Origin: Isoetes taiwanensis
Taxonomy: Eukaryota > Streptophyta > Lycopodiopsida > Isoetales > Isoetaceae
NCBI GenBank assembly: GCA_021234155.1
Contig: JAJEKV010000002.1
Coordinates: forward strand, 1,022,164-1,086,163
Reading direction: 5' to 3'
Length of the DNA: 64,000 bases
The notes beneath the pieces are model-generated. The model saw nothing but the letters and a program-made list of their open reading frames with translations, was not told where the DNA came from and ran no database searches. Positions within the stretch are counted from its first letter, which is position 1, and each line of letters starts with the position of its first letter. Made by a program: the position numbers and the translations under genes. Of the stretch, positions 35,585-48,316 are shown one piece after another.

Positions 35585-37198
35585 TGTGACGTCCCCTACT
35601 CCTTATACGATGCACACATCGTATCCGAAGGAGGAGCATTCCCCCTGGCAGCTACACTGACAGGGGCCATCCACCTGACTCCCACTCCCAGTGGAATGAG
35701 CCAACAAGGGAAGAATGGATGTGTCATTCACCCGTCTCCCATCGGGTCGACCTATCTGCGGAAGCGTGAATAAACAAACATGAGCACAAACTAACAGTAT
35801 ATAAATACAATCACCTCGAAGGGTGAGCACACCATCATCATCATATATACAACATCATCAGTATGATCAATATCAACAAGGGAATCCTACCCTAGGCTAT
35901 GACTCAAGAGGGTTCGACTGACAGCTTGGCCCCCAGAAGTCATTGCAGACAGAATTCATGGCAATGGATTTGGCTGGCAAAGGAACATGGCTATTGGGTA
36001 GTCCACTCCATCCGCCCCTCCTGTACACACTTTGCAGAGTGGCTTGATAGGTATTGGGACTGGACCGTAGCCTGCCGGATACGTAGCCAAGAGGGCTACT
36101 ACTGGATTGCATCTCTCCAGCCCCTATATGAGGCAGGAGGAAGGTCACCCTCCCTCCAGAGGCTTCCATGCTCAACACAGGTGGCTAGAGGGCCACTGCC
36201 CTTATTCGACTTGAACCCAATGGAGAGTGACGCATCACTCCACGGGTGTCGAGCCCATGCCTTGCCCACACGCAGTGACAAGGCATTAGACCTAGCTCAC
36301 TAGAATCCCTGGTAGGCCCACACCAGAGGGATTGATCTGTGTTGGGACAAGTACCTCCTTGTTCTGCCGGTCTGGCCTCTCCACCTTCAACCCGGTGGGC
36401 TCCTGTGTACAGGCCGCAATAATTGGGTACTAATGATACTATTCTAGGATCATCTTCTACAAAGCTGCTAGGGTCTTTACCCCCCTTCCCAATACATGGA
36501 GGTCATAGAATGAAATACCAACATTATCATAGAACTTGAAATGAAGAATATCATCTAATCTATTGACCTAAACAACAGAGTTAGGTTTTTTAGTTAGGGC
36601 TTATGATCTTGGGATCTATAAGGCCTCTATGGCTGAACGAATATGCTAAACTACCTCACTGCCTAGCCCAAAGACGGCTTTGCACAACAGAATGACTAGA
36701 TACCTGGTCCTTGACCTGCTCCGGATCCTCGGAATGCATCCATGCTCCTGATCTTGATGAAGATGGATGCTACTCGATGATCTATTGTGCAAAGACGGCT
36801 TTACAGAGCCGAGCAATGCGGAATGGGGTCTTGACTTCGCCGAAATGGCTCAAGGAAACCCTAAATGCGAAAAGGGAAAGAAGCTCTATGAAAACCCTAA
36901 AATGCAAAGAGAGGAAAAGGGTTTAGGGTTTAAGGGGGAACCCTTATATAGAAACCCTTATGGTTAGGTTAAAACATTGGCAAATGGGGTTTAGCCATTT
37001 GGCAATGGGGTCCATGGGGGTTATTAATTGTGTATGTTTATTTAACATGCACAATATTCAAAGTTGCCCCCTAGGTGCAACTCTTGCCCCCTAGGTGCGA
37101 CCTACTACAACCACCAAGTACATGTCATCTGTGACATGTACGGGTGATGTGGCATATAATATACGTATTCGGGGCGTATATTATGCTGGAACGTCACA
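35585..37198 (-). repeat. 3' LTR of the chromovirus
   Basis: Bounded by the 8-bp inverted termini TGTGACGT (35585-35592) and ACGTCACA (37191-37198), with GACAA directly outside. It matches 46701-48316 along its whole length with scattered substitutions and small indels. On the inner side it abuts the polypurine tract. Confidence 0.95.
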
Positions 37199-37988: not shown

Positions 37989-38390
37989 CTACTGCTTCTC
38001 TAGATCTGATTGTAGCGCCCAAGTAGCATCTTCCACTGGTAAGTGTGTCCACTTCACAAGGTATTGGAGAAATTTTGACCTTCTTGTCTTCTTATAAGCC
38101 CTGTAAAGAAGGACCTCAAGGACGATTTCAAGCTGATTGTCCGTCATTTTCAGCAACTCGGTTGTCTCCAATATCTCCTCTGGATTAGGAGTGTGTTTCT
38201 TTAGGAGACTTACGTGGAAGACCCTATGGATTTTTAGATGTGCTGGCAGGTCCAACTTGTAGGCTTGGGTACCTACTCTTTTGGTAATCCTGAAAGGTCC
38301 AGCCCATCTTGGAGCAAACTTCTTGCAATTGCCGATGCGGAGCTTGGCCTGCTTCACCTTGATCTTCAACCACACCTTGTCTCCCACCTG
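37989..38390 (-). pseudogene. Integrase C-terminal part and chromodomain
   Basis: The frame starts GDKVWLKIKVKQAKLR, the usual integrase C-terminal module. It continues FAPRWAGPFRITKRVGTQAY and LKIHRVFHVSLLKKH, then ends with a chromodomain, residues about 85-132. The chromodomain keeps YLVKWTHLPVEDATW, with the two tryptophans placed as in other chromovirus chromodomains. In plant chromoviruses this domain directs integration to modified histones. It is out of frame with the upstream integrase (frameshift near 38390) but is itself open to its stop. Confidence 0.9.
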
Positions 38391-38840
38391 AAATTCTCTT
38401 ACTGTCCTGCTTGTTGGTGATGCTTTTCTGCCTGCTTCTTGCTGCTAGGAGGTATCCCCTCACCTCCTCCACTAACTCTTGCATCTCCGAAAGCATCTGT
38501 TGGGAGACTTCCACCTTGGACACAGGATTGTGCCAAGTATCCGGATCCGGGGTAAGATATTGGTACCCGTAGTTGATCATAAAAGAACTCATCTGCTCCA
38601 AGACATTTGGAATTCGGAGTTGTTCCGCCTTTGTTTGTTGGCATATCTGGCACTTACGAATGTACCTTGCTATCTCCTTCTTCATGCCAGGCCAGAAGTA
38701 ACTGCTTCTAATTTTGCAGTATGTCTTCATAAACCCTGCATGCCCTGCTATGGGACTATTGTGTGTATCATGTAGGATTAGCTTCCTAACTCCTGAAGAT
38801 TCGGGTACACACAATTTGTTTTTATGGTATAGCAAGTTAT
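38391..38840 (-). pseudogene. Integrase zinc-binding domain, catalytic core deleted
   Basis: The H-H-C-C zinc domain is intact (HDTHNSPIAGHAGF, then CQICQQTKAEQ at about 38650). The sequence then jumps from PNVLEQ straight to a segment resembling the region after the catalytic core (SSFMINYGYQYL, EMQELVEEVRGYL). The D,D-35-E core, roughly 200 residues in relatives, is absent. This internal deletion removes the integration chemistry while leaving the zinc domain and chromodomain. Confidence 0.85.
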
Positions 38841-40807
38841 TCTCCTTCTTATAGTGCCTAAATGTTTTTCTTTCCTTGTCGGTCCTGGCTTTCTTGCAAA
38901 GACTTGCCCAAACTTCCTTGAAGTCGGCATCTGTTGGCAAGCTTTCTTCAATTTTCTTGCTGAACTCGCTCGTGAGCGTCGAAATTGCATTACAATGCGT
39001 TCTTGTTGCCAAAGGCTTCCTAGAAAGAGCATCTGCAACCACATTGAGCTTTCCTGGCTTATAAATTATCTCGAAGTCATATTCTTCAAGGAATTCCATC
39101 CACCTCCTTTGCCTCAAATTGAAGAGCGGTTGTGTAAATATGTATTGAAGGCTTTGATGATCCGTATCTAGCTGGAATCTTCTTCCCAATAGATAGTGCC
39201 TAGATTCTTAAAGCTCTTACAATAGCCAGAAGCTCCTGATCATGCGTTGGGTAGCGCTGTTCCGCAACATTCATTTTCTTCGAATCATAGGTCACTACCC
39301 TTTCCTCCTGCATGAGGACTGCACCTGTTGCTATTCTGCTAGCGTCCGTCGCCACAAGCTTATCTTTGGCCGGGTCTGGCAAGACCAAAACTGGCGCCGT
39401 CGTCAATGCTTCCTTCAATGTGTCAAATGCTTTCTGGGCCTTACTTTGCCAATGAGTTGCTCAATCTTTTATCTTCCCTGCTTTCATAAGATCCGTTAAT
39501 GGTGCTGCTACCTTGATAAAGGTCTTGGCAAACCTTCTATAATAGCCTGCTAGGCCGAGGAAGCTCCTTACTTCATGTGTGTTCTTTGGTGCTGGCCAGT
39601 CTATCACTGCTTCAATCTTGGCAGGGTCCGTGGAGATGCCTTCCGCTATAATCACATGCCCTAGGTACTCCACTCTTTCTGTGGCAAAGTGGCACTTAGA
39701 TAGCTTCGCGAAGAGTTGATGCCTTCTTAGCTTTTCGAGCACCTTTCTCAAATGTTGGGCATGCTCTTCTAGAGATTTGTTGTACACCAAGATGTCGTCG
39801 AAGAAGACTATGATGAAAGAATCTAGGAATTCATGGAAGACATCATTCATGAGCCTCATGAAAGTTGTTGGAGCATTGGACAAACCGAATGGCATCACCG
39901 TGAATTCATAGTGGCCATATCTCATTCTCAAAGCCCACTTGTGGATGTCTTCTTCCTTGATCCTGATCTCGTGATAACCTGATCTCAAGTCTATCTTAGA
40001 AAAGACCTTCGCTCCCTGCAACTGGTCCATGAGATCATCTGATCTAGGCAAGGCATACTTATTCTTAATGGTGTGTTTATTTAACTGGCGGTAGTCAATG
40101 CACATCCTAAGGCTTCCATCCTTCTTCTTTACAAAAAGGATAGGCGCTCCAAAAGGAGAGACACTAGGTCTTATGAACCCTAGGTCTAGCAATTCTTGCA
40201 GTTGCTTCTTCAACTCCGTCAACTCTTCGGTTGACATTCTATAAGGTGCCTTGCTAGTTGGCTTAGTCCCTGGTTCAAGTGCTATTTCACACTCGACTCC
40301 TCTATAGGGTGGAAGCTGCTTGATCTCATCAGGAAATAAGTCCTGAAATTCCTTTATCAACTTTGCTATAGGCTTTGGGAGCTTTTTCACTGCTTTGGCC
40401 TCTTTCTCTTCTTCCGTCTCTTCCTTGTCCGCTTGGAGTCTGAAGATGTAGGCCACTTGCTCTTTCCTTATGCACTTAAGTAATTTCTCGCTCGACATGC
40501 ATTGCATAATTGGTGTTACTTCTTTACCTGCTATCTCGATGATCTTGCCTTCCGGCGTAGTTAAGGTCACCTTACGCTTTCCACAATCAATGATGGCTCC
40601 TGCTGGCCCAAGATAATCCATTCCTATTATCAAATCATATTTGCCGATGTTCATCACTTCGGTTCCCAATACTACGTTGACTCCCGGCAAGTCTATGTTG
40701 AAGTTAATTCTTTTTCCTGCTGTATGCCTGATTGCACCACTAGCCAACACAACCGGTCTAGGCTTTGACTTCAAGGGCTTAAGTCTAGGCTTTGACTTCA
40801 AGGGCAA
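38841..40807 (-). pseudogene. Protease C-terminal part, reverse transcriptase and RNase H
   Basis: From 40807 the frame holds the late protease block [17 protein letters not shown]. The RT follows with [20 protein letters not shown], the first catalytic Asp in [19 protein letters not shown], and the catalytic pair in [14 protein letters not shown] ends at a TGA at 39461 where relatives have Trp (context KIKD-stop-ATHWQSK). RNase H follows (VATDASRIATGAVLMQEE, then LLAIVRALR). A 1-bp shift near 39200 leads into GRRFQLDTDHQSLQYIF and VVADALSRKP. It copies element RNA into DNA and removes the RNA strand. Apart from the two breaks the domains look well conserved. A 27-bp tandem duplication (40756-40809) lies at the frame change with the gag-protease frame. 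Confidence 0.95.
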
Positions 40808-42062
40808 AGTTATGGATGCGCCGTGTATCTATCAAGACTATGAAAGATTTTTCCTTGGCTTTCCCAGTTGTGAAGATTACTTGGTACTGGCTTTCTGCGT
40901 TCTCCGTATCAATGGCTGCAAAAATATGGCACTCACCATGAATATAGTCCGGTGCATCGTCGTCGTCAGCTTCTGTTGGTGTCTCCCATCCCATTTCCGT
41001 TAATGCTGCGTTCATCATCAGGGGGCAGTTGTTTGTCCTATGCCCTGGTTGGAAACACCTAAAGCACAGTTGCTTCTTTATGCACTCCTGCTTCTTCTCT
41101 TTGGGAATGGATTGCAAAAACTGTCTCACTGCCTTGGAATAGTTGGATCTCCCTCCTTGCTCTTTGAAGGTCACCTGTTTCTTATCCTGCTTGCCAGAGT
41201 TTGCATTGCCCTGCTTCCTATAATTAGCATTATACTAAGGCCTGCTGGCTGCTGGGCTCGCCGCTCTTGGGCTATAGCCTCCCGTGCCCTTTCCCTTGTC
41301 ATGGAAATACTACTGTCTTGGTGCATTCTCTTGGGGTCCCGTCCCTTGCAAGCTGACCGCTTTGGATTCCGCTTCTGACACGGTTCTGGGGTTGATTGCT
41401 CTTACTAGTTTCCTGATCTCTTCATTCAACCCCTCTATATAGCCCTCCACTGCGTGCCTTTCACTCAACTTCGGCACATAGAGCCTTAGTCTCATGAATT
41501 CCTCTGTGTACTTTTGAACTGATTTGTTGCCCTGCTGCAATCGGTAAAACTGCTGCATCATGTGACACTTGTGCTCTCTTGGCACATAATGGCGCTTGAA
41601 AGCCTTAGCAAACTTCTTGAACCTGCAACTGTCCCTGCTCAGTCCATGTGCTTTGGAGTAGCCCTTCCACCAAATCCTAGCTGCTCCCTTCAGGTTGGCT
41701 GTAGCTACTTTGCCTTTGTCCTTGTCCTTCATGCCATAGGCATTTCCATATTCCCTCATCTCGTCCAACCATGCTTCTGCTTCCATCCCTGACCTGCTAT
41801 CTCCTAAAAATTGCTCCAGCTTCCTTGCTTTCCATACATTACTGAGCGCTGAGTCGACCTTCTTCTGATAGTCAGATTGTGCCATGCCCCTATCATGGTT
41901 TGGGTTCTCCCGGCGGTCTTGCCTCTCTTCTTCCTGCTCTTCCGATCCGGAGTCAGAGTCTGAACTAGAGTCGGAGGAGCCGCCTGAGCTAGGTGATCTT
42001 CTTCTGTGGGTTCTCTTCCTTTGCTGCACTGTTCGGCCGGCCAGTGTTTCTGGCAATGGCAT
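40785..42062 (-). pseudogene. gag with zinc knuckle, and start of protease
   Basis: The frame opens at 42062 (MPLPETLAGRT). It has an acidic Ser/Asp stretch, then the retrotransposon gag domain (AEAWLDEMREYGNAYG, GAARIWWKGYSKAHG, FKRHYVPREHKCHMMQQF, YTEEFMRLRLYVPKLS). In the same frame, after in-frame TAG codons at 41310-41312 and 41235-41237, follows a CCHC zinc knuckle, CFRCFQPGHRTNNC, at about 41060. Next is the protease active-site region, which reads [11 protein letters not shown] where relatives have D-T/S-G-A, so the catalytic motif is damaged. Gag packages element RNA into particles. Confidence 0.92.
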
Positions 42063-42447
42063 ATTCTGGTCTTGCCCTCATGTTGCTGCTACTGCCAACA
42101 ATGCCCTTATCTCATGAATGTCGGATCGAATCTGTGATAGCTCTTCCTCTGGTGTTACTGCATCAAACTCTTGGCGTAGGTTTCTTGGCTAGAAACGCCT
42201 TGGTGGAGTACGCTCTTGGTCCTGATGTCCTTGTTGTTCAACATTTCTAGGTACTCTAGCTGCATACACATTAGATTATACTCTGATGATTAGTTCATTA
42301 TTTTGTCATTGCATTGGTTGTTTGATGATGTAATTGAGGGGACAAAATTATATGACAAGAAAACAAAATTAAGGTCATGGTTTATATTCATAGATATACT
42401 ATTGCTTTTACATTCAAGATATCAAAAAATTGAAAACATTATTAATT
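42063..42447 (-). other. Spacer between ORF-B and gag
   Basis: The stretch next to 42062 may encode a further N-terminal part of gag in another frame (RGRAITDSIRH-like). The part nearer 42447 is AT-rich and non-coding. Confidence 0.4.
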
Positions 42448-43858
42448 TTATTCCTGGAATTTCTTCAAATAATCAGGGTTGTCCTCCAAAACTTTCTTCA
42501 CTTGGGCCGTGCCGATTGTTCTCCCTAGGTTCCTAAGGATGTTTGTGGCCGTGCCTCCTTGAAGTGCTGTCACTAGGTCCTTGATCCTCCTATCCGAAGT
42601 ATATACCTCCCTCATTGCCAACCTGCCCTGCCGTCTGTAGGGGACTGCGAAGTTGAAGATACTTAATGCTATCGTTCTCTTGATAAGGACGACATGGTCG
42701 ATGTTTGGGGCCATCCGAGCATGATTTTCAAATCCCGAGAGGGCGATAAGCATAAAGACTCCTTCTTCACCCCGTGGGCTGAATTGACGGTGTATAACCG
42801 TTATTCTTCCATCTAGGAGTAATGGAAGATAGAACCTAAGGGCTTTATCATGCCCTGCTTCCTCAGCAGAAGTCGAGGTTGCCCTATGTCTTCCCGCGTA
42901 CTCGTCAACCTGCACCTCCTCCAGTTCTCTGAAGTCCTGGTGCACTAATTTCCTCAGGTTGATGATGCCTCCATGCTGCCCTGGTGCCGTTGCCGATGAG
43001 CTAGGTAAGAGTGCTGATGTCGACATACCCTTGATGCCCATGCGCTATTGGATTGCCAGGAACTCTTCTTCTGACGGCAATTCCCTCTCGGTCATCATTT
43101 GTCTGATGCCTGTGTAAGCCTCGATGTCCGATGACGTCTCGCCGGTGTATGTCTTGGCTTCCCCTTATGCTGACGGGGAAGTCTTGAGTTTCTCGATTGA
43201 TGAAGTCGTCGAGATCTGGTTGTTGTCGTAGGAGATGCAGAATTTCATCCACTCTGAAACCCATGTCTCTGCATTCTGGAAGATTTTTAATGTCATGGAG
43301 GCTTAAGTATGCTTCTCCTCCCATGAACACTGGGGTCAAGCTTGTTATTCCTTGCCCAAGTGGTGGGGCTCTTCTTGTTGCTCTGAGTCCTTCTTCGAAG
43401 CCTTGGAGCTGCTGCTCTGCCTGCTGCCTCTCCTGTTCTAGGTCGATGTCTTATGAATCCGATCCGTGTTCCTCCTCTTCTCCCTCCTGTTCGTACTCGA
43501 GGCGCATCTGCTCCTCTTCTGCTGCTGCCATGGCCATGGGTTCAACTTCTAAAGGCTGCAGTGAGGGTTCTCCTATCTGGGTTTGGCCTCGAAGAGATAG
43601 GAAAATAGCTATGGCTGTTGTATAGAAAAAGTACCTCCTCCTATTGACAGAGATAGACATATAATTGGGTAGGCGGACTGCTTTGTTCTCTAAGTACTTG
43701 TCTATGTTTGGGATATCCTGCAGGGCTGACTTAAGGGCCATGCTGGGGGCAAAATATCCTATGCAAGGTGGGAGTTCTACCAAGGACGGTCCTATCTTGG
43801 CATGGAACTCGAACATAATGTCTTGGTAAAAAGGGGTGGCATTGATGGTGGCTTCCAC
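42448..43858 (-). pseudogene. ORF-B, extra retrotransposon ORF of unknown function
   Basis: A protein of about 470 residues is encoded on the minus strand between the hairpin spacer and gag. It starts MEATINATPFYQDIMFEF and has an acidic linker (EEEQMRLEYEQEGEEEE). It is broken by a stop at 43451-43453, a frameshift near 43170, and a TAG just before the MGIKGMSTS segment at 43041. It ends TAQVKKVLEDNPDYLKKFQE. A central hydrophobic patch (HVVLIKRTIALSIFNFAV) could be buried core. No family was recognised. Its place upstream of gag recalls ORF1 of Tat/Ogre-type elements, which lack a chromodomain. Confidence 0.7.
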
Positions 43859-44252
43859 ATCAAGTTCCTTGTGGAAGACGGCAAAGATGGAGTTGAGTTG
43901 ATGTCAGCCTCGGCCACATGAGATGTGGCACTGTACCATCGCCTGAATGCAGTGGTTGCCATGGTCTATGAGCAGCTGGGGATGTCAAACAGATGGGAAA
44001 GCACCTTAGTGGCCTGAAAAATTGGCTTGGAGTGAGGAGCAAGGGTGTAGGATGCAAATGACACTTGTGGTCCTATTTATAGGCAAAACCCTAATTTTGG
44101 GAAAATTCAAAGTTGGGAAATATCTATGATTCTAAGCTCTAGGTATATAATTCACAGACTAACTATGCTAAAGAATGCATTCTAAGGATCCTATAGCAAC
44201 AAATTTCACCTAATTTGGGGAAAGTATGGACAAGCTAGGGCAATTTTAGTGT
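43859..44252 (-). other. Leader segment directly upstream of ORF-B
   Basis: No long frame. It lies between the third hairpin module and ORF-B. Confidence 0.4.
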
Positions 44253-44330: not shown

Positions 44331-44461
44331 GCCTTATTTGGGTCAAGGATGATGCCAAACATGGAAATTAAGGATGGAAACCTGCATATCTCGTCGAGGT
44401 AGGTCGGATTGAGCCCTTACTTGCCTCATTTGGACAAGTTTTGGCCTAGTTTTGGGGTCGA

Positions 44462-44532
44462 CCACTCACACAGTGCGCCAGGGTCGAATCGGTTTGCAAA
44501 CCGAATTGGTCTGGGCGCACCCTGTGAGGGGT
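44462..44532. repeat. Hairpin module 2
   Basis: A 71-bp unit. The outer stem pairs ACTCACACAGTGCGCC with GGCGCACCCTGTGAGG, and the inner stem is the palindrome CGGTTTGCAAACCG. It differs from module 3 at one or two positions. Confidence 0.85.
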
Positions 44533-44663
44533 GTGGCTCCATTTGAGTTAGGGTTGGGCAATTTCTACAAACTAGGGGTCAAATCTTACATTAAGGTGAG
44601 CTGAGTTGAATGATATACTTACTTTCTGCATTTGGACAAGATTTGGCATCAAACCAAGCTCGA

Positions 44664-44734
44664 CCACTCACACAGTGCGCCAGGGTCGAATCGGTTTGCA
44701 AACCGAATTGGTCTGGGCGCACTCTGTGAGGGGT
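44664..44734. repeat. Hairpin module 3
   Basis: Same 71-bp unit and stems as module 2. It lies about 380 bp downstream of the ORF-A stop when read on the minus strand. Confidence 0.85.
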
Positions 44735-45112
44735 GGGGTCAAAAACACTTGGGTTTGCTCCAAATTTGTTAATTCCAAGTATAGAACTTAGTAACACAAC
44801 CTACTTACACTTGATTTAACACATTGTATTAACAAAATTTATTTACAACAGTCTTAATATGGCTTCTTCTTTATGTATTGGGCTAGCCTTATATCCTTGG
44901 GCATACAAGCTACTCTTTTTGCATGCATAGCACATGCAACAGAGTCTTCGAAGTGTCTGACCACGTGCTGCTCGGCTGCCTCCTATAACGCGAGCAACAT
45001 ATCACCTGTAACTCGCTTGGACTTGTCGAATTCTTGCAAAATCTCCCGTGTCAGCCTCGCGAAGGGAGCTCTGGGGATGATAACTCTGGGGATGATAACT
45101 CTGCTGAAAATG

Positions 45113-46018
45113 TCAGATCTCCCGAGCAGCTCTAGAAAAATTGGAGTTCGCCTTCCTCTTTGGTGGAGCAGGTCTCTCAGGTGGCGGCTTCAGAGTGTTG
45201 TTCTTAGTCGGCCGGCCTCCTTCGACAAACGTGACCTTGTGCTCGTCATAATACTTGGAGTATTCTTCGTACATTTTCATGTACGAAGTGTACTCTTTCA
45301 GGTTCTTCCTATACTCAAGGTCCTGCTTGAGTATATACGACTCCCTCTGTGGCTTCGGCTTCTTGGTGCTGTCGCTGGGGTGCTTTGGCGACGGCCACCT
45401 AAGGTACGGGGGCACCCTTGCTACTACATCGTCCTCCTCCCGCGCTGTATTTGAGGGTCCCGAGCCCTCAGCTGGGTCGGGCATCCTAGTTCCCTCATCT
45501 GACTCAGTGTCAGATGAGGATGGAGGCTTCTCGGGGGCTGGCTCCTGGATAATGACTCCTTTGGCGGGAGTCGTCTTCATCTTGCGCTTTGAGTCCTTTG
45601 GCAGCGCAGGAGCTTTTCTTTTCGCTGCCCTCAGCTTCTCGCGCTCCTCCCGCCGCCTCTTCTTTTCCTCCCTCTTCTGCTTCTTCTCTTGCTTTCTCTT
45701 GCGCCCCTCCTCTTTCTCCTTGCGGCGCTCTTCTCTCTCGAGCTCCCTCTGCAATAACTCTGCTGCTTCTTCCACTGTGAGTTCTTGTGCTACCTCTTCA
45801 AGGCCTTGGGGCCGCTCCTCTTTCTGGTGCTCAGGGGCTTCCTCCTGGTGCTCAGGGGCCTCCTCTTGTGTATCTGGGTTAGGTTGGGCCTCCTGCTCTT
45901 CGTGATCCCGCTCGGCTCGCTCTTGAGCCCGTCGGGCCTTCTGCCGAGCTGCTCGCTCTTGGGCGCTCACATGTCCAGGGGAGACTGTAATCCGGGCTGT
46001 CTGTTTGGTGCGGGCCAT
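45113..46018 (-). CDS. ORF-A, 301-residue protein starting with a histone H3 tail sequence
   Basis: The first ATG of this open frame is at 46018 and encodes MARTKQTAR, identical to histone H3 residues 1-8 after removal of Met. The next residue is Ile, not Lys9. The frame upstream of this ATG is open but contains no ATG, and the context GACATGGCC is a strong plant start. The rest is a tandem EEAPEHQ repeat (residues 52-65), a long Lys/Glu/Arg-rich helix with possible nuclear signals (about 80-147, including KKRRREEREK), an acidic Ser stretch (about 167-200), and a Tyr-rich segment (SYMKMYEEYSKYYDEH, about 245-260). The frame is intact, unlike ORF-B, gag and pol. Hairpin modules flank it. A role as a histone mimic is inference. 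Confidence 0.8.
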   Translation of the reverse strand: MARTKQTARITVSPGHVSAQERAARQKARRAQERAERDHEEQEAQPNPDTQEEAPEHQEEAPEHQKEERPQGLEEVAQELTVEEAAELLQRELEREERRKEKEEGRKRKQEKKQKREEKKRRREEREKLRAAKRKAPALPKDSKRKMKTTPAKGVIIQEPAPEKPPSSSDTESDEGTRMPDPAEGSGPSNTAREEDDVVARVPPYLRWPSPKHPSDSTKKPKPQRESYILKQDLEYRKNLKEYTSYMKMYEEYSKYYDEHKVTFVEGGRPTKNNTLKPPPERPAPPKRKANSNFSRAAREI

Positions 46019-46236
46019 GTCTTTGTTTGAAGCAATCCGAGCTCGGGCACCTAGAAATCGTTCTCTGGGACGAGTTGTTCTCCGAAGGCGCTGGGGACAA
46101 ATGAGGAACCCTAATTTTCTATTTATAGGCAGGGGAATTTTAGGGTTTGGACCTGCAATTTCATATTGGGCCAATCTGGAAGGTCTTATTGAAGATCTGA
46201 GAGGTACTTTAGGTTTGTTTAGCCAAAAAGCATCCA

Positions 46237-46274: not shown

Positions 46275-46417
46275 CATCTCTTTTTGGGTCCAATTTTCAA
46301 TTTACAAGGGGTTTCTTAGTGTTATAACATGCAAAACTAGCTAGAATCAAGGAGATAAGCTGAACTGTACCATTACTTTAGCTAAATTACACATCTAACT
46401 AGGTCAACAAGGGTCCA

Positions 46418-46488
46418 CCACTCACACAGTGCACCAAGGTCGAATTGGTTTGCAAATCGATTTGGTCTGGGCGCACTCTGTGAGGGGT
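46418..46488. repeat. Hairpin module 5
   Basis: A 71-bp unit, as modules 2 and 3, with the inner palindrome slightly changed (GGTTTGCAAATC). Confidence 0.85.
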
Positions 46489-46687
46489 CACCTGTTCTTG
46501 GTTGTTTTAGGTTGGGTTTCTACTAACTTACTACTAACTTAGCATTAATCTATTTACTACACTAGAAATTGGAATAAAATTTCCAATTTTCGAGGTTCCT
46601 GCTTGGGTGGCTATCTCCCAAGGCTTGAATCTACTGTTAGTTCTATGGGAAAATGGTCAGTGCTCGATCTTGATCTGCCAAGATCAT

Positions 46688-46699
46688 GCTCTGATACCA
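46688..46699 (-). promoter_or_regulatory. Primer binding site for initiator tRNA-Met
   Basis: On the minus strand TGGTATCAGAGC, the standard complement of the 3' end of plant tRNA-iMet, lies one base after the 5' LTR. It primes minus-strand DNA synthesis. Confidence 0.95.
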
Positions 46700-46700
46700 C

Positions 46701-48316
46701 TTTCATGTCCCCTACTCCTTATACGATGCACACATCGTATCTGAAGGAGGAGCATTCCCCCTGGCAGCTACACTGACAAGGGCCATCCACCTGACTCCAC
46801 TCCCAGTGGAATGAGCCAGCAAGGGAAGAATGGATGTGTCATTCACCCGTCTCCCATCGGGTCAACCTATCTGCGGAGGCACGAATAAACAAACATGAGC
46901 ACAAACTAACAGTATATAAATATAATCACCTCGAAGGGTGAGCACAACATCATCATCATATATACAATATCATCAGTATGATCAATATCAATAAGGGAAT
47001 CCTACCCTGAGCTCTGACTCAAGGGGGTTCGACTGACAGCTTGGCCTCCAAAAGTCATTGCAGACAGAATTCATGGCAATGGATTTGGCTGGCAAAGGAA
47101 CATGGCTGTTGGGTAGTCCACTCCATCCGCCCCTCCTGTACACACTTTGCATAGTGGCTTGATAGGTATTAGGACTGGACCGTAGCCTGTCGGATACGTA
47201 GCCAAGAGGGCTACTACTGGATTGCATCTCTCCAGCCCCTATGAGGCAGGAGGAAGGTCACCCTCCCTCCAGAGGCTTCCATGCTCAACATAGGTGGCTA
47301 GAGGGCCACTGCCCTTATTCGACTTGAACCCAATGGAGAGTGACGCATCACTCCACGGGTGTCGAGCCCATGCCTTGCCCACACACAGTGACAAGGCATT
47401 AGACCTAGCTCACTAGAATCCCTAGTAGGCTTTACACACCAGAGGGATTGATCTGTGTTGGGACAAGTACCTCCTTGTTCTGCCGATCTGGCGCCTCCAA
47501 CTTCAACCCGGTGGGCTCCTGTGTACAGGCCGCAATAATTGGGTACTAATGGTACTATTATAGGATCATCTTCCACAAAGCTGCTAGGGTCTCTACCTCC
47601 CATCCCAATACATGGAGGTCACAGAATGAAATACCAACATCATCACAGAACTTGAAATGAAGAATATCATCTAATCTATTTACCTAAACAACAGAGTTAG
47701 GTTCTTTAGTTAGGGCTTATGATCTTGGGATCTATAAGGCCTCTATGGCTAAATGAATATGCTAAACTACCTCACTGCCTAGCCCAAAGACGGCTTTGCA
47801 CAACAGAATGACTAGATACCTGGTCCTTGACCTGTTCTGGATCCTCGGAATGCATCCATGCTCCTGATCTTGCTGAAGATGGCTGCTACTCGATGATCTG
47901 TTGTGCAAAGACAGCTTTGCAGAGCCGAGCAATGCGGAATGGGGTCTTGACTTGGCCGAAATGGCTCAAGGAAACTCTAAATGCAAAAAGGGAAAGGAGC
48001 TATATGAAAACCCTAAAATATAAAGAGAGGAAAAGGGTTTAGGGTTTAAGGGGGAACCCTTATATAGAAACCCTTAGGGTTAGGTTAAAACATTGGCAAA
48101 TGGGGTTTAGCCATTTGGCAATGGGGTCCATGGGGGTTATTAATTGTGTATGTTTATTTAACATGCACAATATTCAAAGTTGCCCCCCTAGGTGCAACTC
48201 TTGCCCCCTAGGTGCAACCTACTACAACCACCAAGTACATGTCATCCGTGACATGCACGGGTGACGTGGTAGTATAATATACGTATTCGGGACGTATACT
48301 ATGCTGGAACATCACA
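46701..48316 (-). repeat. 5' LTR of the chromovirus
   Basis: Matches 35585-37198. Its outer end is ATCACA (to 48316), followed by the target duplication GACAA. Its inner end (TTTCATGT at 46701-46708) has lost the TGTGACGT terminus by three substitutions, one of them C to T at the CpG, as expected after DNA methylation. Confidence 0.95.

Follow-up and report, generated by a model that had tools for sequence, protein, structure and literature searches.

Plant chromoviruses, the Ty3/gypsy long terminal repeat (LTR) retrotransposons with a chromodomain, carry LTRs, a primer binding site (PBS), gag, reverse transcriptase (RT), integrase and the chromodomain itself, and retroelements are normally packaged by host chromatin and do not supply chromatin of their own. 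Here we describe an element of this kind from Isoetes taiwanensis, located in a stretch of 64,000 nucleotides (nt; contig JAJEKV010000002.1 of assembly GCA_021234155.1, positions 1,022,164 to 1,086,163; hereafter the window, in which all coordinates are counted). It shares these parts with the plant chromoviruses but has two extra genes before gag, which we call retro-H3 and ORF-B. Judged by its sequence, the open reading frame ORF-A of the window represents the first three quarters of a gene for histone H3 that belongs to a chromodomain Ty3/gypsy LTR-retrotransposon lineage.

Several described systems share part of this arrangement, as far as the titles and abstract beginnings of mainly open-access papers (few subscription papers, no preprints) portray them. 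Like canonical H3 (H3.1, H3.3), retro-H3 has residues 1-8 with Met before Ala1, an H3 fold and a match to Pfam Histone, but it differs in an insertion of about 300 residues, in the changes R63P, F84V and K53H and in its location in a high-copy LTR retrotransposon. SNAG domains on LSD1 and influenza NS1 mimic histone tails. Two further mimics of this kind, DPPA3 and PAF15, have UHRF1 as their target (PMC11187062, PMC7060239), and H3K9M traps Clr4 (PMC5030085). With DPPA3, PAF15, SNAG and NS1, retro-H3 shares an H3-like peptide end that would be able to engage an H3 reader; unlike them, it has eight identical residues at its true N-terminus together with a fold, in a transposon, and the presence of this fold sets it apart from fold-less tail mimics. 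DNA viruses encode histones that form nucleosomes (PMC9396995), and these are likewise core histones encoded by a mobile genetic parasite, whereas in the present case a retrotransposon encodes an H3 on its own, with a long insertion and an H3 tail that is strictly conserved. VANC of the Arabidopsis VANDAL transposons is proposed to counter epigenetic silencing and is thus a transposon-encoded protein with a proposed anti-silencing role, as retro-H3 may be; in contrast to retro-H3, it is described as sequence-specific, belongs to another kind of transposon and is portrayed in the parts of these sources covered here without mention of a histone part (PMC5735166, PMC10398659). Among the matches listed from the same body of literature there was no retrotransposon-encoded H3 or other core histone, and no H3-tail mimic in a plant retrotransposon.

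ORF-A encodes 301 amino acids (aa; 46018-45113, minus strand) and begins MARTKQTARITVSPG. The original prediction, made from the window alone, held that its first codons spell the H3 N-terminus, and the sequence confirms that H3 residues 1-8 directly follow the initiator Met. It also described ORF-A as having no visible stop and read it as a mimic of the H3 tail, and here the picture changes: the stop at 45113 is premature, and reading beyond it reveals a degenerate H3 fold that lies in a different frame, contains one further stop and matches an H3-fold query at 48.6% identity over 72 aa (E 3e-18, tblastn). Position 45113 is therefore not the natural end, because the premature stop and the broken frame have cut off the fold of the window copy; the H3 N-terminus stands, but it is not a tail alone, since the fold lies at the C-terminal end, past ORF-A. 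The parts of the gene are as follows, where pN/pS is the ratio of nonsynonymous to synonymous differences per site.

46120..46127, minus strand: TATAAATA, candidate internal promoter for ORF-A, 109 nt 5' of its ATG
45992..46018, minus strand: MARTKQTAR, initiator Met followed by residues 1-8 of histone H3 (from the sequence; pN/pS 0.06)
45113..46018, minus strand: ORF-A, H3 tail and most of the insertion, with a premature stop where the fold begins
45233..45283, minus strand: best-conserved part of the insertion, YMKMYEEYSKYY region, residues 246-262 (lowest pN/pS windows of ORF-A)
44854..45087, minus strand: degenerate histone H3 fold in a frame other than that of ORF-A, one in-frame stop (tblastn)

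The fold is not peculiar to the window. A search with the end of ORF-A revealed H3-like words downstream in some loci, and with an H3 or retro-H3 fold as query, the window and 15 of the 16 long-flanked ORF-A loci proved to have a fold behind the tail, some 870 to 1,340 nt past the ATG; it is just a fragment in several loci and weak in L028, and was absent from L017. The best five folds share 51-57% identity with H3 across 85-88 residues. One fold matches H3.3 in the Protein Data Bank (PDB) at E 2e-27, and those of L174 and L018 reach 82 and 90 bits with Pfam Histone, over the cut-off of 26.4. One other copy, made up of two overlapping pieces (L039 and L174) that were translated separately in one frame, is open from the ATG through the fold and gives 397 aa (Pfam Histone E 4e-23). 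When the genome was searched with the fold, the best 150 of 9,079 candidates were all at least 94% identical; 144 of these were stop-free and 6 contained a stop, and 40 lay in frames of at least 400 aa, counted by frame length.

Five of five folds examined keep C110, H113, R116, D123 and L126, which we take to be residues of H3-H3 and H3-H4 contacts, as well as R83, K115 and T118, and all five have Pro at R63, Val at F84 and His at K53. The encoded protein thus consists of H3 residues 1-8 unchanged, residue 9, some 300 inserted charged residues and then the H3 fold. Measured against the H3 tail (ARTKQTARKS...), residues 1-8 are identical and conserved, and residues 10 to about 46 are replaced by the insertion, with loss of S10, K14, K27 and K36. 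Since the tail is followed by an H3 fold, we conclude that the gene is a retrotransposon-borne histone H3 with an insertion of about 300 residues, and we are all but certain that it is an H3-derived gene of the element.

The count of the MARTKQTAR start is far beyond chance. A degenerate pattern for M-A-R-T-K-Q-T-A-(R or S) had 1,888 exact matches (904 + 984) in the organism's own genome (1,658,258,908 bases, 1,110 contigs), and the reversed control pattern had none in the same 1.66 Gb. The pattern occurred at 10 sites in a prokaryote collection of a stated 257 billion bases (by eye, six clear H3, one short H3 start, two other MARTKQTARK and one MASTKQTAR) and at none in a viral collection. 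We read all of 100 sites sampled non-randomly from the 1,888, mostly on short contigs (C1 to C290), and sorted them by cluster and by eye: 75 were of the ORF-A type, 17 were degenerate H3 in another repeat, five belonged to an unrelated protein that we call protein X, two were true H3 genes and one stood alone. The 75 ORF-A-type copies encode these residues with 44 different 26-mers, with Ser at residue 8 in a single copy. At residue 9, 54 copies have K, 10 have V, 4 have I, 3 have M, 3 have L and 1 has E, so that the Ile noted in place of Lys9 by the original prediction is correct for the window copy but not for the family. This pattern of Lys or an aliphatic residue recalls the K-to-M class of inhibitory histone changes. 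As a lead only, it would suit H3K9 enzymes, with residue 9 as either a substrate or a K9M-like trap, and it is weaker than it appears because the copies share ancestry. Neither ORF-A nor the ORF-A of a second family had homologues in the protein collection at E <= 0.001.

Strong purifying selection acts on the tail and on the histone core alike. Our test set for the tail comprised 25 sequences, 18 found by similarity to ORF-A (window included) and seven by similarity to ORF-B; it leans towards conserved starts because six of the nine start residues were required and four frame-lesioned sequences were dropped. Comparing the first eight codons with those that follow, the check proposed with the original prediction, gave a pN/pS of 0.06 for residues 1-8 against 0.54 at residue 9 and 0.38 across residues 10-21 directly after (pS 0.55-0.67), and the ORF-B-found set alone gave 0.06 for residues 1-8 and 0.43 for residues 10-21. 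A scan of the whole of ORF-A used 16 of 21 sequences; among its 270 windows, that of the tail was the 6th lowest in ratio and the 2nd lowest in pN. MARTKQTAR is exact in 13 of 20 relatives from the ORF-A list, which include three picked on purpose for a late-beginning match. A second sample, blind to ORF-A, took every 7th rank of the ORF-B list to give 20 loci of 1.2 kb each: nine contain an ORF-A start (five exact, two with one substitution and two with frame or start lesions), and the other 11 have none within the 1.2 kb fetched. For the fold, all 21 pairs of seven sequences have a pN/pS of 0.14-0.27, and these ratios are rough because pS (0.43-1.04) is near saturation.

Two other sources of this conservation were considered and rejected. 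Constraint on the DNA or RNA is ruled out because synonymous sites are equally free in the tail codons (pS 0.61 in codons 1-8 against 0.55 in codons 10-21), and youth of the copies is at odds with a pS of about 0.6 within the ORF-A family and with best RT pieces of other families that are 37-70% identical to those of the window. The five scan windows with a lower ratio than the tail begin at residues 249-253 (pN/pS 0.019-0.033), in the conserved block of the insertion. By pN/pS, this YMKMYEEYSKYY region is more conserved than the tail; the block is recognisable in several other families, and 45233-45283 had no Pfam match.

The original prediction was also right about the start of the gene, in that the 74 codons before the ORF-A start form an open frame with no ATG and the start context is strong, with A or G at -3 in 74 of 75 copies. 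Between the PBS and the ATG, nine loci contain 7-16 upstream ATGs, approximately as expected from base composition, and this number argues against simple scanning from the LTR. At -95 to -117 of the ATG, 15 of 17 loci have TATAAATA (11) or TTTAAATA (4), motifs that occur just once elsewhere within 700 nt; shuffles of this stretch gave a mean of 0.28 and a maximum of 2. All nine ORF-B-sampled leaders have TATAAATA (six) or, by eye, TATAAGTA (three) in the same place, and the last 100 nt before the ATG contain nine ATGs against 18.6 expected. The putative TATA box about 110 nt 5' of the ATG suggests that translation begins at the ATG of MARTKQTAR.

The gene sits between the PBS and gag, with its own putative TATA box upstream, and is followed by ORF-B, which likewise precedes gag. 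The element lies on the minus strand throughout and comprises, in addition to the parts listed above:

46707..48316, minus strand: 5' LTR (blastn pairing with 35591-37198)
46688..46699, minus strand: PBS TGGTATCAGAGC, exact match, immediately internal to the 5' LTR
42448..43903, minus strand: ORF-B, conserved protein in three frame pieces in the window (open reading frame list; relatives in the genome)
41310..42077, minus strand: gag (capsid; Pfam Retrotrans_gag E 1e-17)
40785..41234, minus strand: zinc knuckle, under Pfam's own cut-off (zf-CCHC_2 E 6e-4)
39461..40828, minus strand: protease (weak; RVP_2 E 4e-4) and reverse transcriptase (RVT_1 E 2e-38)
38224..39207, minus strand: RNase H (RT_RNaseH E 8e-9) and integrase zinc-binding domain (Integrase_H2C2 E 1.5e-20)
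37989..38444, minus strand: integrase C-terminal SH3-like domain (SH3_Tf2-1 E 1e-22) and chromodomain (Chromo E 9e-8)
35591..37198, minus strand: 3' LTR (blastn pairing with 46707-48316)

The LTRs, the PBS, the gag-RT-integrase order and the chromodomain, which the original prediction had correctly placed in the same element (Pfam Chromo E 9e-8), make this a Ty3/gypsy chromodomain retrotransposon, although its frames are broken at several places. The two LTRs are 95.5% identical over 1,613 columns with 65 mismatches (blastn), and the PBS TGGTATCAGAGC, presumably of the initiator tRNA-Met type, lies 681 nt upstream of the ORF-A ATG. ORF-B has at least 150 relatives in the genome, its first piece is 29-60% identical across families, and it matched no Pfam family. 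The Pfam scan of the window's element proteins gave no H4. Three 79-nt near-palindromic repeats flank ORF-A, one upstream of its putative TATA box (46414-46492) and two between ORF-A and ORF-B (44458-44536 and 44660-44738), and similar repeat arms precede ORF-A in L017. We rejected these hairpins as part of the ORF-A gene, as paired arms near ORF-A were seen in the window and L017, with just scattered single arms in others of the 17 loci scanned in addition to the window.

The same gene order recurs in most of 16 ORF-A loci of 10 kb each, whose best RT pieces are 37-70% identical to that of the window. Homologues of ORF-B follow ORF-A in order in 14 of the 16 loci and gag in 12, and the PBS is present within one mismatch in eight as well as in the window. 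L014, L020 and L021 contain further pieces of gag or pol that are differently oriented or placed and probably come from neighbouring elements, and L017 shows ORF-A alone.

Two further repeats of this genome bear on how retro-H3 should be read. The first encodes protein X, a high-copy protein that is unrelated to ORF-A and also starts with MARTKQTAR (best 150 of 882 candidates scored). Its loci are:

L149:1-2148 (plus strand), L022:7255-7500 (minus strand) and L150-L163: protein X

Among 14 relatives, the start is exact in 11, has one change in one and is affected by frame lesions in two, the latter chosen for a late-beginning match, and pN/pS (11 of the 14) is 0.04 for codons 1-8 against 0.48 for codons 9-32. 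One copy is open for all 716 aa read, and the H3-fold query found no histone fold in these 716 aa. Searches gave no homologue in the protein collection at E <= 0.001 and nothing in Pfam, NCBIfam or PHROGs, and against PDB only weak matches to ClpB, probably due to chance (best E 0.021). In L022 the ATG is preceded by TTCTGCAG, which resembles a 3' splice site, as in two host H3 genes. Protein X is possibly an independent H3-tail mimic, and it is the closer parallel to the described tail mimics because no fold was found in it. The second repeat, likewise present in high copy, contains a degenerate H3 (MARTKQTARIHPGG...) at 17 of the 100 sampled sites, including L015, L025 and L027. It has a near-identical start in 17 of 17 and remnants of an H3 fold behind an insertion, its long-flank copies are full of stops, and it looks like a separate H3 capture. 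L025 also holds an open reading frame with a very weak RAG1-like match (E 0.024).

The function that we consider most likely, with even chances, is that retro-H3 is deposited into nucleosomes as an H3 variant. In this model, the protein would enter the nucleus, pair with H4 via its fold and go into nucleosomes, either on the element's own DNA or more widely. The resulting nucleosomes would keep the K4/K9 end for readers, would lack residues 10 to about 46 and would gain a bulky insertion, and this could hinder silencing of the element or provide a platform that its own chromodomain integrase would recognise. The presence of the fold in 15 of 16 loci, its matches to H3.3 and Pfam Histone, its kept contact residues, the open copies, the selection on tail and fold, the putative TATA box and the chromodomain all argue for such a role. 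Several points weigh against it. The window copy itself is broken, and a single full-length copy has been read end to end. R63P, F84V and K53H may alter DNA contacts and stability, and a nucleosome may not have room for so bulky an insertion. Moreover, an in-frame ATG directly precedes the motif ATG in 10 of the 75 copies (MMARTKQTAR; L018, L026, L050, L051, L054, L066, L086, L093, L105 and L127), and this second ATG could hide Ala1 unless leaky scanning uses the motif ATG, which in this part of the family counts against the free Ala1 stressed by the original prediction. More tentatively, and in our view doubtful, the whole LTR-retrotransposon lineage may set the chromatin of its own DNA with H3 variant nucleosomes that resist silencing and are readable by its own integrase, with protein X as a soluble decoy bearing the same H3 end.

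The alternative that survives best, although we consider it unlikely, is that retro-H3 is itself a soluble decoy, a form of the original prediction's idea, in which the free ARTKQTAR end on a long charged arm would bind and titrate H3 readers or H3K4/K9 enzymes. The fold would then serve just stability, chaperone binding or nuclear import, and copies in which position 9 is V, I, M or L could act as a trap for H3K9 methyltransferases in the manner of H3K9M. Such a role would fit the sharp end of selection after residue 8 and the 20 of 75 copies with V, I, M or L at residue 9 (K in 54), although these residue 9 states are common by descent, so that the pattern counts for less. It would also agree with protein X, which keeps the tail (pN/pS 0.04 against 0.48) with no histone fold found, and there are precedents in the action of H3K9M on Clr4 (PMC5030085) and of DPPA3 and PAF15 on UHRF1 (PMC11187062, PMC7060239). 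However, the fold of retro-H3 is under purifying selection as well and its core contact residues are kept, which a decoy would not need.

Less probable still is that retro-H3, together with host H4, coats or compacts the element's new cDNA before or during nuclear entry, in the way that virus-encoded histones treat viral DNA, and does not act on host chromatin. Its fold with a conserved core is encoded in the element upstream of gag, and virus-encoded histones are described as building nucleosomes (PMC9396995), but no H4 turned up among those element proteins of the window that were scanned, association with the particle is conjecture, and the strictly kept ARTKQTAR points to chromatin proteins as its readers.

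We regard it as very unlikely that the captured gene is CENH3-like and steers the element or its integrase to centromeres. Although the fold words EIRHFQ, LLIP, RxTxExL and VTLMRxD resemble plant CENH3 and the element has a chromodomain integrase, each of the five folds tested had a better score with canonical H3 than with the Arabidopsis CENH3 sequence used (255 against 198 in one case), and all align to canonical H3 without gaps, i.e. without the longer loop 1, and follow a tail that is that of canonical H3. By neither score nor loop 1 do the five folds belong with CENH3, as far as the sequence used represents it.

Captured genes are common in plant transposons, and the degenerate-H3 repeat of the same genome looks like a passive capture of a host H3 gene without function; for retro-H3 this is highly improbable given its same element position in deeply diverged families, the low pN/pS of tail and fold, the placed candidate TATA box and the many open copies.

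A retrotransposon lineage that keeps a core histone under selection would represent a new kind of interaction between element and host. Retro-H3 offers a natural experiment on the parts of H3, in which residues 1-8 and the fold core are kept and residues 10-46 are replaced, and it includes natural H3-like proteins with an aliphatic position 9 that are comparable to laboratory H3K9M. It also opens a direct test of whether mobile elements defend themselves by altering the nucleosome. If the lineage does set its own chromatin and protein X is a decoy, mobile elements of Isoetes taiwanensis would have turned to histone H3, as a tool or as a target, more than once.
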